Origin: Candidatus Cloacimonadota bacterium
Lineage (GTDB): Bacteria; Cloacimonadota; Cloacimonadia; Cloacimonadales; TCS61
DNA length: 34,616 nucleotides
Direction of reading: 5' to 3'
Assembly: GCA_021734245.1 (NCBI GenBank)
Contig: JAIPJH010000022.1
Coordinates: 1-34,616, forward strand
Shown here piece after piece: positions 858 to 32,840 of the stretch. The notes under the pieces are model-generated. The model saw only the letters and a program-made list of their open reading frames with translations. It searched no databases and was not told the origin of the DNA. The position numbers and the translations under genes are program-made. How positions within the stretch are numbered: the stretch's first letter is position 1; each line of letters opens with the position of its first letter.

Positions 858-2216
858 ATGCAAAATCATCTACCGAAATTTGTGGAAATTATGCAAAATG
901 CAGGTTTGACAGACTTAACAATTCAGGCATTTTCAACTTATTATTATAAAATTTTAGAAGGTGCTTCCGGCAAGCTTACAGAAAACGACATTGATCCTCC
1001 TGAAAGTGATAATATTGCAAGGTACAAAAACCTGCATTCCGAATCTTACGCACCTTTGGAAAAACTTGTTGTGATAAAATTGAACGGTGGTTTGGGAACC
1101 AGCATGGGTTTAAAAAAAGCCAAAACTCTGCTCAAGGTGAAGGGTGAATTGAATTTTCTGGATATAATTGCCAGGCAGATCATTGAATTGCGGGAAGAAA
1201 GCGAAAAGTGCATTCCGCTGATGTTTATGCACAGTTTCAATACGCGGGAAGATTCTCTGAATCATCTCAAAATTTATAACGATTTACCGCTTCCCAACCT
1301 GCCTATGGATTTTGTGCAAAATAAATTTCCCAAAATTCGTCAGGAAGATCTTGCTCCATTGCAAAATGAAGATGATCATAAAAATTGGAATCCACCCGGA
1401 CACGGTGAAATTTACAGTGTTCTTTCCAGTTCGGGAGTGCTGGATAAACTGCTGGAACAGGGTTTTGAATATGCTTTTATTTCCAACTCCGATAATCTGG
1501 GGGCAGTCGTCGATGAAAAGATACTTGGTTATTTTGCTGAACATAAAATTCCCTTTATGATGGAAGTTTGCCAGCGGACAGAAGTTGATAAAAAAGGCGG
1601 TCATCTGGCGCAAACCAAGAATGGGCAACTTCTCCTGAGGGAATCTGCTCAATGTCCTGATGATGAAGTTGAAAAATTCCAGGATATCAATCGTTATTCA
1701 TATTTTAACACCAACAATCTCTGGGTAAATTTGAAAGCCTTGAAGCAGAAGCTGTTTGATACAAATAACTTGTTACCACTGCAGTTGATCTTGAATGGAA
1801 AAGAAGTAGACGGTGTAAAAGTTTATCAAGTAGAAAGTGCAATGGGAGCTGCGATCAGCGTGTTCAAAGGCTCAAAAGCAATCCTGGTAAATCGCGATCG
1901 TTTTGCTCCGGTTAAGAAAACTAACGATCTGCTGGCGATCTGGAGCGATGCTTATAAACTCACCGATAACTATCGATTAATCTTGAACGGACGCAGCAAA
2001 CCACCAAAAATTAGTTTGGATGACAGATATTACAAAACTATCGATCAGTTGCAGGATCATTTTGAGTATGGAATTCCTGATTTGAGAAAGTGTAAAAGTT
2101 TGGAAATCAATGCTAATGTTTATTTTGAAAAAGGAGTTCATATCGTTGGAAATGTGAAGATTTCCAAAGATGCCGATCTTGAGCATTGTACATTGGAAAA
2201 TGAGGAATACAAGTAA
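858..2216 (+). CDS. UTP--glucose-1-phosphate uridylyltransferase, UDPGP (eukaryote-like) family
   Basis: This 452-residue enzyme should make UDP-glucose from UTP and glucose-1-phosphate in the cytoplasm. The signature is the nucleotide-binding loop KLNGGLGTSMGLKKAK at residues 74-89, typical of the UDPGP family (eukaryotic UGPase type) rather than the short bacterial GalU. Further family blocks are PGHGEIY near residue 180, SNSDNLGA near residue 210 and the NTNNLWVNL region. The C-terminal part (VHIVGNVKISKDA) looks like the short left-handed beta-helix of UGPases. An AGGAG ribosome site lies 8 bases before the ATG. The gene probably forms an operon with the upstream glycosyltransferase. Its TAA stop is the first three bases of a hairpin repeat array. 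UDP-N-acetylhexosamine pyrophosphorylase is a less likely alternative. Confidence 0.93.
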   Translation: MQNHLPKFVEIMQNAGLTDLTIQAFSTYYYKILEGASGKLTENDIDPPESDNIARYKNLHSESYAPLEKLVVIKLNGGLGTSMGLKKAKTLLKVKGELNFLDIIARQIIELREESEKCIPLMFMHSFNTREDSLNHLKIYNDLPLPNLPMDFVQNKFPKIRQEDLAPLQNEDDHKNWNPPGHGEIYSVLSSSGVLDKLLEQGFEYAFISNSDNLGAVVDEKILGYFAEHKIPFMMEVCQRTEVDKKGGHLAQTKNGQLLLRESAQCPDDEVEKFQDINRYSYFNTNNLWVNLKALKQKLFDTNNLLPLQLILNGKEVDGVKVYQVESAMGAAISVFKGSKAILVNRDRFAPVKKTNDLLAIWSDAYKLTDNYRLILNGRSKPPKISLDDRYYKTIDQLQDHFEYGIPDLRKCKSLEINANVYFEKGVHIVGNVKISKDADLEHCTLENEEYK

Positions 2217-2318
2217 CGCAAACATCCTTGTTTGCGAAAAATCGTGTGCAAAAACTCTTGTCCGTGAGAACTCGTTCAGGAGTGAACGAGATACAGTAAC
2301 GCAAACATCCTTGTTTGC
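2214..2318 (+). repeat. Hairpin repeat array 1, starting on a stop codon
   Basis: The array has a perfect hairpin at 2217-2236 (CGCAAACA, loop TCCT, TGTTTGCG), a degenerate middle, a hairpin at 2271-2290 (CTCGTTCA, loop GGAG, TGAACGAG), and a second GCAAACA/TGTTTGC hairpin at 2301-2318. Every stem closes a 4-base loop. The TAA of the upstream gene is contiguous with the first hairpin, and TAA also precedes the second copy, so TAA is part of the repeat unit. Near-identical arrays lie at 3128-3237 and 3893-4002. Confidence 0.9.
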
Positions 2319-2322
2319 TACA

Positions 2323-2377
2323 GATTTTCAGACTGGATCACAGGATTTGCAGGAGAAAACCCGCGTCCATCCGCGAT
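2323..2377. repeat. GGATCACAGGATTT-type intergenic repeat
   Basis: The segment contains GACTGGATCACAGGATTT followed by a CCGCGTCCATCCGCG stretch. A close relative (ACTGGATCACGGGATTT) lies at 6390-6407, and a degenerate inverted copy is buried at about 6862-6882. It looks like a dispersed non-coding repeat of the genome. No function can be read from it. Confidence 0.55.
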
Positions 2378-2389
2378 TAGAAAAATTTA

Positions 2390-3130
2390 ATGAAAATCAA
2401 TAAATCCTTCAACAAAAACTACGGACAATGGTTTGTGAATGATGTGCTGCATGCCATCAAAACCTACAAAATGTTTCAACCTGATGATAAAATCTGTGTC
2501 GCACTTTCCGGTGGAAAAGACAGCATCACGCTGCTTTATATTTTGTGGTTCATCAACCGGTATTCCTGGCTCAAGTTTCAGCTTTCTGCTTTACACGTAA
2601 AAACAGCAGAATATGATACTTCTGTGCTCAAAGAATTGTGTAAAGAGTTGGATGTTCCCTACTACCAAACAGAACTTTTCCTGACTGAAAAAACACTTTC
2701 CAAAGATACCTGTTATATCTGTTCCCGCTTAAAACGTGGTGCGATGAGTAAATTTCTGCCGGAAAAAGAAATTCAAATTGTAGCTTATGGGCACCATGCA
2801 GATGATGCGGCGGAAACCTTCTTTATGAACATGATAAAACACAAGCGGCTGGGCAGTTTTTCTCCCAAAGTCGATTTTGAAAAATATTACATAAATATAA
2901 TTAGACCGATGATCTATCTGGAAGAAGCAACGATCTCGACGCTGCATAAAAAAGTAGGTTTACCGGTTTTGGATTATAAATGTCCGCATGAGGATGAAAA
3001 TATTCGCAGTGAGTTCAAAGAAAACGTGCAGAAAATACGGGAAATTTTCGGCATAAAACACTTCAGCCGCATCGTAGTTGAATCGCTGGAGAATATAGAT
3101 TGGAAGAACGTTTGGCAAGATTTGATGTAA
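2390..3130 (+). CDS. TtcA-like PP-loop tRNA-thiolation ATPase
   Basis: This is a 246-residue N-type ATP pyrophosphatase. The PP-loop SGGKDS is at residues 40-45 and GHHADDAAET is at about 134-143. Three cysteines sit where TtcA binds its iron-sulfur cluster: C108 and C111 in CYICSRLKRG, and C198 in YKCPHEDENIRSE. TtcA makes 2-thiocytidine at tRNA position 32. Other members of the superfamily (TtuA, and uncharacterised TilS-like proteins) share the motif set, so the exact tRNA base is uncertain. Ribosome-site support for the ATG is weak. The gene is flanked on both sides by the hairpin arrays, and its stop is fused to the second one. Confidence 0.85.
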   Translation: MKINKSFNKNYGQWFVNDVLHAIKTYKMFQPDDKICVALSGGKDSITLLYILWFINRYSWLKFQLSALHVKTAEYDTSVLKELCKELDVPYYQTELFLTEKTLSKDTCYICSRLKRGAMSKFLPEKEIQIVAYGHHADDAAETFFMNMIKHKRLGSFSPKVDFEKYYINIIRPMIYLEEATISTLHKKVGLPVLDYKCPHEDENIRSEFKENVQKIREIFGIKHFSRIVVESLENIDWKNVWQDLM

Positions 3131-3237
3131 CGCAAACATCCTTGTTTGCGAAAGATTGTCTCACAGACACGCTTGTCTGCAAAAAAAAACTCGTTCAGGA
3201 GTGAACGAGATACAGTAACGCAAACATCCTTGTTTGT
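3128..3237 (+). repeat. Hairpin repeat array 2, starting on a stop codon
   Basis: Four consecutive hairpins are visible: 3131-3150 (CGCAAACA/TGTTTGCG, loop TCCT), 3164-3179 (CAGACA/TGTCTG, loop CGCT), 3190-3209 (CTCGTTCA/TGAACGAG, loop GGAG), and 3220-3237 (GCAAACA/TGTTTGT, one G-T pair). The TAA of the TtcA-like gene is contiguous with the first hairpin. An A-run separates the second and third hairpins. The third array (3893-4002) has the same order and nearly the same sequence. Confidence 0.92.
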
Positions 3238-3262
3238 GGCTCAAAAAACAGAGAGGTAAGTT

Positions 3263-3895
3263 ATGTGGAAAATTGAATCGGATACACCACTAAAATTGGG
3301 TGTGATAGAAATGAAAAACATCTCGGTAACAACCGAGAAAACAGCTTATAACAAAATCCTGGAATGTGCTGCCGAATATGCACAGAAATACCAGAATATG
3401 AATATCGGTGAAATTCCCGGAGTGGCAAATGCGAGAAATCTATTCCGTTCCATCGGCATGGATCCTACCAAACATCGTCCTTCTTCAGAGGGACTTCTGC
3501 GGAGAGCTTTGAAGGGCAAAGATTACTTTTCCATCAATACTTTAGTGGATATTGGAAATTGGTGTTCACTGGATTTTCTGCTGCCGATATGCGTGTATGA
3601 TGCAGATAAAACAGAAGGCGAAATTACAGCTCGCCTGGGAAAAGAAGGTGAAAGCTATTTCGGCCATAATAAACGGGAAGTGAACTTGTTCAATCGCTTT
3701 GTGGTTGCAGACGAAAAAGGTCCTTTCGGCTCTCCCATCACCGATTCTACCAAGACAGCTGTTGATGTGAAAACTAAAAATGCAATTCTCATTATTTTTG
3801 CGCCACAGGATTTTGATGATGAAATTCTGCAGAAAGAAATAAAAATCTTTTCGGAAAGAGTGCAGGAAATTTGCGGTGGAGAAGCTCAACAGTAA
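3263..3895 (+). CDS. B3/B4 tRNA-binding-domain protein
   Basis: This 210-residue stand-alone protein is built from the B3/B4 domain otherwise found in the beta subunit of phenylalanyl-tRNA synthetase. Family blocks in order are NARNLFRSIGMDPTKHRPSSE (residues about 60-80), LLRRALKGK, NTLVDIGNW, LPICVYDADK, and GPFGSPITDSTKTAV near residue 155. Stand-alone members are common and mostly uncharacterised; a role in clearing mischarged tRNA or related substrates is possible but unproven. A GAGAGG ribosome site precedes the ATG at 3263; an internal ATG at 3311 has none. The protein is cytosolic, with no signal peptide. Its stop codon opens the third hairpin array. Confidence 0.87.
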   Translation: MWKIESDTPLKLGVIEMKNISVTTEKTAYNKILECAAEYAQKYQNMNIGEIPGVANARNLFRSIGMDPTKHRPSSEGLLRRALKGKDYFSINTLVDIGNWCSLDFLLPICVYDADKTEGEITARLGKEGESYFGHNKREVNLFNRFVVADEKGPFGSPITDSTKTAVDVKTKNAILIIFAPQDFDDEILQKEIKIFSERVQEICGGEAQQ

Positions 3896-4002
3896 CGCAA
3901 ACATCCTTGTTTGCGAAAGATTGTCTCACAGACATTCTTGTCTGCAAAAAAAACTCGTTCAGGAGTGAACGAGATACAGTAACGCAAACATCCTTGTTTG
4001 CG
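3893..4002 (+). repeat. Hairpin repeat array 3, starting on a stop codon
   Basis: The order is the same as array 2: 3896-3915 (CGCAAACA/TGTTTGCG), 3929-3944 (CAGACA/TGTCTG, loop TTCT), 3954-3973 (CTCGTTCA/TGAACGAG), and 3983-4002 (CGCAAACA/TGTTTGCG). The tetraloop of the second hairpin differs from array 2 (TTCT instead of CGCT) while the stem is unchanged. The TAA of the B3/B4 gene is contiguous with the array. Confidence 0.92.
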
Positions 4003-6375: not shown

Positions 6376-6384
6376 ATTACACCA

Positions 6385-6416
6385 TTTTAGACTGGATCAC
6401 GGGATTTACGGGATAA
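6385..6416. repeat. GGATCACGGGATTT-type intergenic repeat
   Basis: The stretch ACTGGATCACGGGATTTACG is a relative of the repeat at 2323-2377 (GACTGGATCACAGGATTT). It lies directly upstream of the sigma factor start and ahead of the GxxExxY gene. Confidence 0.5.
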
Positions 6417-6453: not shown

Positions 6454-6834
6454 TCATTTCAAATCCTTCAGATCTCGTACTTTTCGTTTAATCTCAACTT
6501 CTTCTTCACCAAAATTAATGAGTAAACCAACATCAATTCCAGTTGCAACAAGATAATTTACCAATTGCATCTCATGAATTTTATTTAGTTTGATTATCGA
6601 TTTATATTCAATAATTATCTTATTTTCAACCACAGCATCTGCAATAAAATTTCCAACATTTATGCCGTCATAATCGACAGCGATTTGTTTTTGGGACTCA
6701 TAGAAAAGACCGTTCTTTTTATATTCTATTTCCATGCATTTTTCGTAAACTGATTCCAAATATCCAAAACCGAAAGTATTATAAACTTTATACGCACAGC
6801 CAATAATTTTATCTGATAAATTTTTATATTTCAT
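6454..6834 (-). CDS. GxxExxY family protein (intact copy)
   Basis: This is a 126-residue protein when started at the ATG at 6834; a TTG seven codons upstream (6855) would extend it. The naming motif is present as GYLESVYEKCMEIEY, followed by ADAVVENKIIIEYKSI, which has the D...ExK spacing of PD-(D/E)xK nuclease-like folds, and by HEMQLVNYLVATGIDVGLLINFG. The family (TIGR04256) is widespread and uncharacterised; a nuclease-like fold is usually proposed and activity is unproven. Two degraded relatives lie directly upstream on the same strand, so this locus has been repeatedly duplicated. The start overlaps the end of the first remnant's frame by 11 bases. Confidence 0.85.
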   Translation of the reverse strand: MKYKNLSDKIIGCAYKVYNTFGFGYLESVYEKCMEIEYKKNGLFYESQKQIAVDYDGINVGNFIADAVVENKIIIEYKSIIKLNKIHEMQLVNYLVATGIDVGLLINFGEEEVEIKRKVRDLKDLK

Positions 6835-6973
6835 TTTTAAATAACCTAAAGGCAAAAACCAGTCGATCCTGTGATCTTGTCAAAACACATTCCAGATATC
6901 CTCTGCCAAGCTCATAATAAACTTCATAGAAGCACTGAATGATATCACTTGATAATCCTGCCTGTTTTAACAT
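6824..6973 (-). pseudogene. GxxExxY 5' fragment (N-terminal half only)
   Basis: Reading down from the ATG at 6973 gives MLKQAGLSSDIIQCFYEVYY then ELGRGYLECV, which is the family's N-terminus up to the GxxExxY motif. Homology then stops (about 6884) and the frame runs on through a degenerate GATCACAGGATC repeat to a stop at 6824, 49 codons in all. The nuclease-like C-terminal half is missing. The break coincides with the inserted repeat. Confidence 0.7.
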
Positions 6974-14042: not shown

Positions 14043-15079
<1,037 letters not shown>

Positions 15080-32242: not shown

Positions 32243-32524
32243 ATGAAATATAGTGAAGCCATAAAACCAATCAGTTATCTAAAAGCAAATGCTGCCAAAA
32301 TATTGAAAGAAATCTCTAAAACACGTTCTCCGCTTATTATTACACAAAACGGAGAAGCTAAAGCTGTGTTGCAGGATATCAAAGAATACGAAGAAATGAA
32401 AGAAACTTTGGCCTTATTAAAAATACTAGCATTGGGAGAAGAATCAGTAAGAAAAGGTGAGGTTAAATCTGCTGATGAAGTTTTTTCTGAGATTGAAAAA
32501 AAGATAGAAAATGATCAAAAATAA
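32243..32524 (+). CDS. Phd/YefM-type antitoxin
   Basis: This 93-residue protein has an N-terminal DNA-binding fold with SYLKANAAKILKEI and PLIITQNGEAKAVLQDIKEYEEM, the standard Phd/YefM pattern. A charged C-terminal helix would wrap the toxin. The strong AGGAGG ribosome site suggests high synthesis. The toxin gene starts 14 bases before its stop, giving coupled translation. Confidence 0.92.
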   Translation: MKYSEAIKPISYLKANAAKILKEISKTRSPLIITQNGEAKAVLQDIKEYEEMKETLALLKILALGEESVRKGEVKSADEVFSEIEKKIENDQK

Positions 32525-32840
32525 AGAGCTTATTTTCACCAAACAAGCTGAAGATGATCTTCATTCAATATACGATTACATTAAAAATAACGATTCAGCT
32601 GATGCTGCTCAAAAAATATACTATTCTATTAAAGATAAATGTACAAAGTTAAAAAGTTTCTCAAATATCGGACATATACCACCAGAATTAGAAATTCTTT
32701 CAATTTACAATTATTTTGAAATCAACTTTAAGCCATATAGAATAATTTATAATATTACCAAGAGGGAAGTAATAATTTTTGGCATTTTTGATGGTCGTAG
32801 AAATTTATCGGATATTTTAGCTAAAAGATTGTTGAAGTAG
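32511..32840 (+). CDS. RelE/ParE-family toxin
   Basis: This 109-residue protein has the compact RelE/ParE fold: FTKQAEDDLHSIYDYIKNND at the start, then NYFEINFKPYRIIYNITKREVIIFGIFDGRRNL. The pattern and the missing RelE catalytic set favour a ParE-type (gyrase-targeting) toxin, but this is not certain. It partners the overlapping antitoxin gene. The 119 bases after it hold no gene, only a TTGACT (32925-32930) ahead of the HD-domain gene. Confidence 0.9.
   Translation: MIKNKELIFTKQAEDDLHSIYDYIKNNDSADAAQKIYYSIKDKCTKLKSFSNIGHIPPELEILSIYNYFEINFKPYRIIYNITKREVIIFGIFDGRRNLSDILAKRLLK

Follow-up and report, generated by a model that had tools for sequence, protein, structure and literature searches.

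Three consecutive and unrelated genes of a bacterial genome each end in a TAA codon that runs directly into a cluster of short hairpins, which raises the question of what these clusters are and how they came to sit on the stop codons of their neighbours. The genes lie on contig JAIPJH010000022.1 (C22), the 34,616-nucleotide stretch that we refer to as the window, which belongs to a 3.11 Mb assembly (98.5% complete) from the Cloacimonadota. Our analysis draws on a 0.43 Mb sample of this genome together with genome-wide pattern searches, and the genomes compared are draft assemblies of uncultured bacteria with mechanically called open reading frames (ORFs). The arrays are very probably clusters of non-autonomous repetitive extragenic palindromic (REP) elements, spread by a REP-associated tyrosine transposase (RAYT, also TnpA_REP) of the HUH/Y1 family.

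The first hairpin of each array, stem 1, reads CGCAAACA[TCCT]TGTTTGCG and stands directly 3' of the TAA that closes the genes at 2216, 3130 and 3895, as a first-pass annotation of the window had described. All three arrays share one order. On the plus strand, a GTAA foot (2213-2216, 3127-3130 and 3892-3895 in arrays 1, 2 and 3) leads into the stem-1 hairpin (2217-2236, 3131-3150 and 3896-3915); an inverted hairpin on the minus strand, CTCGTTCA[GGAG]TGAACGAG (stem 3; 2271-2290, 3190-3209 and 3954-3973), follows with a foot of its own, GTAT, on the complement of 2291-2294, 3210-3213 and 3974-3977; and after ATACA comes a second, plus-strand GTAAC-stem-1 copy (feet at 2296-2299, 3215-3218 and 3979-3982, hairpins at 2301-2318, 3220-3237 and 3983-4002). 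The first hairpin is thus repeated at the end of each array, as had been noted, with one mismatch in the last copy of array 2 (TTTGTG). A further plus-strand hairpin, CAGACA/TGTCTG, had been assigned to every array; it is intact in array 2 (loop CGCT, 3164-3179) and array 3 (loop TTCT, 3929-3944), and array 1 holds no intact one. In array 2 it lacks the GTA foot that related hairpins in another genome (G030) and on C18 carry. The four-base loops described for all stems hold within the window, while other genomic copies have loops of three (TCC, TCT), and the TAA seen before the copies proved to be part of a longer invariant word, GTAA. The 18-mer has 6 matches within the window, against 0.08 expected from shuffled sequence.

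The element also occurs beyond this locus. A genome-wide pattern search allowing loops of two to five bases returned 26 copies of stem 1 and 16 of stem 3, spread over many other contigs, and none for the reversed pattern that served as control; the element is therefore dispersed in the genome, a short palindrome repeated outside genes as in REP elements. REPs usually exceed 100 copies, and the 16-26 per stem found here are lower. An origin of the three arrays by duplication or gene conversion within a single locus, in which no transposase took part, is suggested by arrays 2 and 3 being adjacent and about 97% alike and by a 53-bp tandem array of stem 1 on C17, but copies on many other contigs and around RAYTs in other genera make it highly improbable as the full account; local copying may nonetheless explain why near-identical arrays occupy three neighbouring junctions. 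The array on C17 (L013, 1300-1760) comprises about seven 53-bp units in which CTCAAAG..CTTTGAG and stem-1 hairpins alternate. Copies of GCAAACGTCCTCGTTTGC were not counted as the element, as they are coding and lie within a C-terminal sorting-type domain (QTSSFA). A search of phage DNA gave no match.

What marks these copies beyond the stem is the sequence at their foot. GTA stands just 5' of the stem in all oriented copies but one (GTAAC, GTATC, GTACT and a few others), in the position that the GTAG guide occupies in classical REPs, and the fourth base is mostly A, T or C, as opposed to the G of the REP consensus GTAG (or GTGG). The TAA of the foot is exactly the stop codon of an ORF in 13 of the 22 GTAA-footed copies, against 2 of 43 among the GTAAC sites that lie outside ORF bodies in a 0.39 Mb sample of the same genome (binomial p 1.6e-12); the copy at the end of contig C45, which was not resolvable, is scored among the 22 as non-anchored. 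Four tandem permease-like genes on C27 (L186, 1085-8642, minus strand) and one on C14 (L187, 2071) all end in ALKYE followed by the GTAAC-stem-1 element, so that the element seems to have been duplicated along with this gene family; with the five related genes counted once, 9 of 18 GTAA copies provide the stop (p 3e-8). Only 37 of 290 genes in this genome have GTA at the stop position, and a G before TAA is therefore not simply the usual base there. The preference for stop codons that the first-pass annotation had proposed is thus borne out, and with it an excess at gene ends; its suggestion that the element is targeted there holds only in part, since most of the excess may be due to the GTAA foot in combination with selection. 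The enzyme may in addition prefer targets that contain GTA.

The same hairpins flank transposase genes in relatives. G001 (QMNP01), a genome of the same genus, encodes a 221-aa RAYT with an identical stem-1 hairpin on both sides: the upstream copy starts at the stop codon of rdgB (GTAA), and the downstream copy, through its GTAA foot, provides the RAYT gene itself with its stop. G036, which belongs to another genus, likewise carries a related RAYT next to rdgB, accompanied by a hairpin that is nearly identical. In G030 a RAYT is flanked by CTCGTTCA (stem 3) and CAGACA hairpins, so that identical hairpins flank a RAYT in both G001 and G030. Given stem 1 in the former and CTCGTTCA with CAGACA in the latter, the arrays of the window resemble a mosaic in which hairpins belonging to two related RAYTs are combined. 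The flanked gene has the HUH motif, a single catalytic tyrosine and a match to Pfam Y1_Tnp; against the NCBIfam model REP_Tyr_transpos, for which the cut-off is 80 bits, the G001 RAYT scores 78.2 bits and a RAYT of G002, the second genome of this genus, 107.4 bits. The search for a REP-type transposase thus found its object in the genus. In the window's own genome Y1_Tnp has nine matches, several of which lie between direct-repeat hairpin blocks of their own kind.

Comparison with the two genomes of the same genus, G001 and G002, shows orthologous sites that are free of the element. The gene before array 1 encodes a UTP--glucose-1-phosphate uridylyltransferase (UDPGP, PF01704; 858-2216, plus strand, 452 aa), whose stop at 2214-2216 is the foot of the array; its orthologues have the same length and end in TAG in G002 and TAA in G001, with no array. 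The gene before array 3 encodes a B3/4-domain protein (PF03483; 3263-3895, plus strand) that is likewise followed by no array in either relative. There the protein is about eight residues longer (GGEVTNSFILKLN, GGKIVESFVLKSN), while in the window it ends in GGEAQQ, cut at its C-terminus by array 3, so that the element supplied this gene with a new stop. The PP-loop ATPase gene between them (ATP_bind_3, TtcA-like; 2390-3130, plus strand), whose stop codon (3128-3130) lies in the foot of array 2, has another end in G002 (KQDEQD), a tail that seems to come from another repeat, and this comparison was therefore left out of the count. A second, unrelated intergenic repeat (GACTGGATCACAGGATTTGCAGGA...) occurs in the window at 2319-2357, directly after array 1, and at 6378-6416, and the PP-loop gene of G002 has similar text as its C-terminus.

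All three genes stand in the same order in G002 without the array sites, and the junction of the UDPGP and PP-loop genes, the place of array 1, is there occupied by the RAYT that scores 107.4 bits, which differs from that of G001 and has a repeat block of its own. This bears on another explanation, in which unrelated genes in a row, with a palindromic site behind each, would be integron-like cassettes carrying an attC site after each stop codon. With the gene order kept where the sites are missing, the genes are not inserted cassettes; the units are moreover simple, short, perfect hairpins, and copies also occur where no cassette order exists, so that, on gene order and unit structure, an integron origin is hardly credible.

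A further alternative is that the hairpins are structures of RNA 3' ends (terminators, or hairpins that serve processing or stability) which evolved at gene ends under selection by the host and are not mobile DNA. They do sit directly after stop codons and the arrays fold strongly (z = -5.0 for array 2), but the same sequence is found at unrelated genes and is absent from the same genes in sister species, and it flanks RAYTs in relatives. The array hairpins with a T tail, as in a terminator, are on the minus strand only, antisense to the genes, and a search of Rfam gave no match. We consider it very unlikely that such structures account for the arrays, although a secondary RNA role of the hairpins is possible. 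An intrinsic terminator of the upstream genes would combine a G+C-rich hairpin with a T run on the sense strand; the terminator-like hits in the arrays are all on the minus strand, and a terminator role for these genes is therefore not supported.

The earlier suggestion of a mobile, REP-like element carrying its own stop codon is thus supported by the dispersed copies, the RAYT with identical hairpins in a same-genus genome, the element-free orthologous sites and the clear excess at stop codons, and its main features recur well beyond this genus. Within about 300 bp of RAYTs from many phyla, 152 of 189 hairpins have a GTA foot (13% expected), the fourth base being A in 62 cases, G in 40, C in 38 and T in 21. 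In 39 further, held-out loci from Cloacimonadota families the GTA foot is present on 92 of 196 hairpins, against an expected 15% (p 8e-27). Direct repeats of at least 16 nt flank 18 of 29 RAYT genes and 4 of 153 control genes, two of these four being the window's own genes, and inverted repeats of at least 16 nt were found at 1 of the 29 RAYT loci. A stop codon that passes immediately into a hairpin ends 10 of 54 RAYT genes, compared with 2 of 301 controls.

The only solved structure matching the RAYT alignment is that of E. coli TnpA_REP (4ER8); Q95 of the E. coli protein is a published guide contact. Across a first set of 50 RAYT loci (L256-L326), the residue at the equivalent position followed the fourth guide base (21/5 against 1/23, Fisher 2e-8) and ranked top of 158 alignment columns in this respect, although the data that tested the relation were also those that had revealed it. 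Well-supported branches yielded only 4 independent pairs, and 22 held-out loci did not confirm the covariation (4/5 against 4/9, p 0.66). That this residue tracks the fourth base is unproven and is not claimed here.

How might such elements move and come to close genes? Each unit has a 5' GTAN, the presumed guide, and a hairpin of 7-9 bp with a loop of 3-4 nt, and units occur singly or as inverted pairs that face each other GTA to GTA (hairpin-GATAC-A-GTAAC-hairpin). By analogy with published REP biochemistry, the RAYT would bind the single-stranded hairpin, the guide tetranucleotide would choose the cleavage site, and units would be copied or re-inserted as single-stranded DNA. Since TAA is part of GTAA, a copy that inserts in frame at the 3' end of a gene would close the frame with little harm, and such closure together with selection can explain the anchoring to stop codons. 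Several observations weigh against this account of the arrays. None of the nine Y1_Tnp matches of the window's own assembly (98.5% complete) has stem-1 flanks, and its stem-1 copies, in the presence of no stem-1-flanked RAYT, are probably relics or are moved in trans. The empty sites in G002 at the UDPGP gene and on C34 read GTAG, and GTA could therefore belong to the target and not to the element. Mobility is deduced from genome comparison, and gain over loss rests on two sister genomes. Finally, the RAYTs examined here are flanked by direct repeats, unlike classical RAYTs, whose flanking REPs are inverted (PMC2817692).

The closest known systems are the GTAG REPs and REPtrons of E. coli, Stenotrophomonas and Pseudomonas (PMC2817692, PMC3733652, PMC8266576), for which the proximity of REPs to RAYTs, inverted pairs and clusters are already established (PMC2817692, PMC3733652). 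In both kinds the palindrome is short, perfect or nearly so, and has a tetranucleotide with GTA at its 5' foot; both flank a RAYT, and both occur as extra intergenic copies that are single, paired or clustered. In both, moreover, the foot supplies stop codons, which in GTAG REPs are TAG, the amber codon. These REPs are reported to 'often provide' the TAG stop to neighbouring ORFs, a stop that the report terms opal (PMC3733652). In contrast to them, the fourth guide base is free here (GTAA, GTAC, GTAT and some GTAG), copy number per stem is low, and several different hairpins are mixed in one array; it is by this free base, by the direct-repeat layout and by the host phylum that these elements stand apart from known REPs. 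The inverted pairs of stem 3 and stem 1, with GTA feet facing, recall the two-REP unit of a REPIN (REP doublet forming a hairpin) or BIME (bacterial interspersed mosaic element), but a REPIN joins two like REPs that move together, whereas the members here have unlike stems, and the arrays add further hairpins. The RAYTs resemble TnpA_Y1 subclasses 2.4 and 2.7 (Quentin et al., 2018; PMC6006769) in NHxH, an aspartate at the E100 position, R104, a length of about 213 aa and a YI[LR][NQ]NP-like motif, while differing from them in the Q95 equivalent, which is H or L in many Cloacimonadota RAYTs.

RAYTs cleave single-stranded REPs, with the foot tetranucleotide helping to choose the cleavage site, and in one system cleavage shifted to GA or GT when GTAG was replaced by GTAC (PMC8266576). 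The degeneracy catalogued for the motif concerns positions 2 and 3, and the REP scan of a later survey demanded GTAG or GTGG (PMC6006769), so that elements with GTAA, GTAC or GTAT would be unlisted there. Searches of this kind would miss GTAN families, and the reach of RAYT-driven repeats is therefore probably underestimated; a literature search for REPs in the Cloacimonadota returned no paper apart from one on Caldithrix that names both terms. The elements may, by analogy, be natural guide variants, and if GTAA, GTAC and GTAT guides are active, nature supplies the cases for testing the guide model of how cleavage sites are chosen, which has so far been shown only with mutated oligonucleotides. 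More broadly, we see an even chance that a large, mostly uncatalogued, GTAN-guided REP/RAYT superfamily extends through the Cloacimonadota and neighbouring phyla, in which the fourth base shifts between lineages, moving the predicted cleavage dinucleotide, and GTAA and GTAG guides serve as stops of host genes and of the transposase gene. In the arrays, moreover, a mobile element is seen to rewrite protein C-termini by means of its recognition tetranucleotide.

Other features of the window lie apart from the arrays. A PD-(D/E)XK gene (PDDEXK_3, GxxExxY-type) at 6454-6855 is followed, up to 7372, by two 148-bp stretches that are 96% identical and look like pieces of similar genes, with a tail in common (GCCGCTGATCAACGCAGATTTAACACGGATATTTGTC). 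In the ATP synthase operon (14043-15079), a 249-aa ORF looks like three fused c-subunit hairpins and is followed by a separate 83-aa c subunit, an arrangement unusual for an F-type enzyme. A Phd/YefM antitoxin and ParE toxin pair is encoded at 32243-32840.

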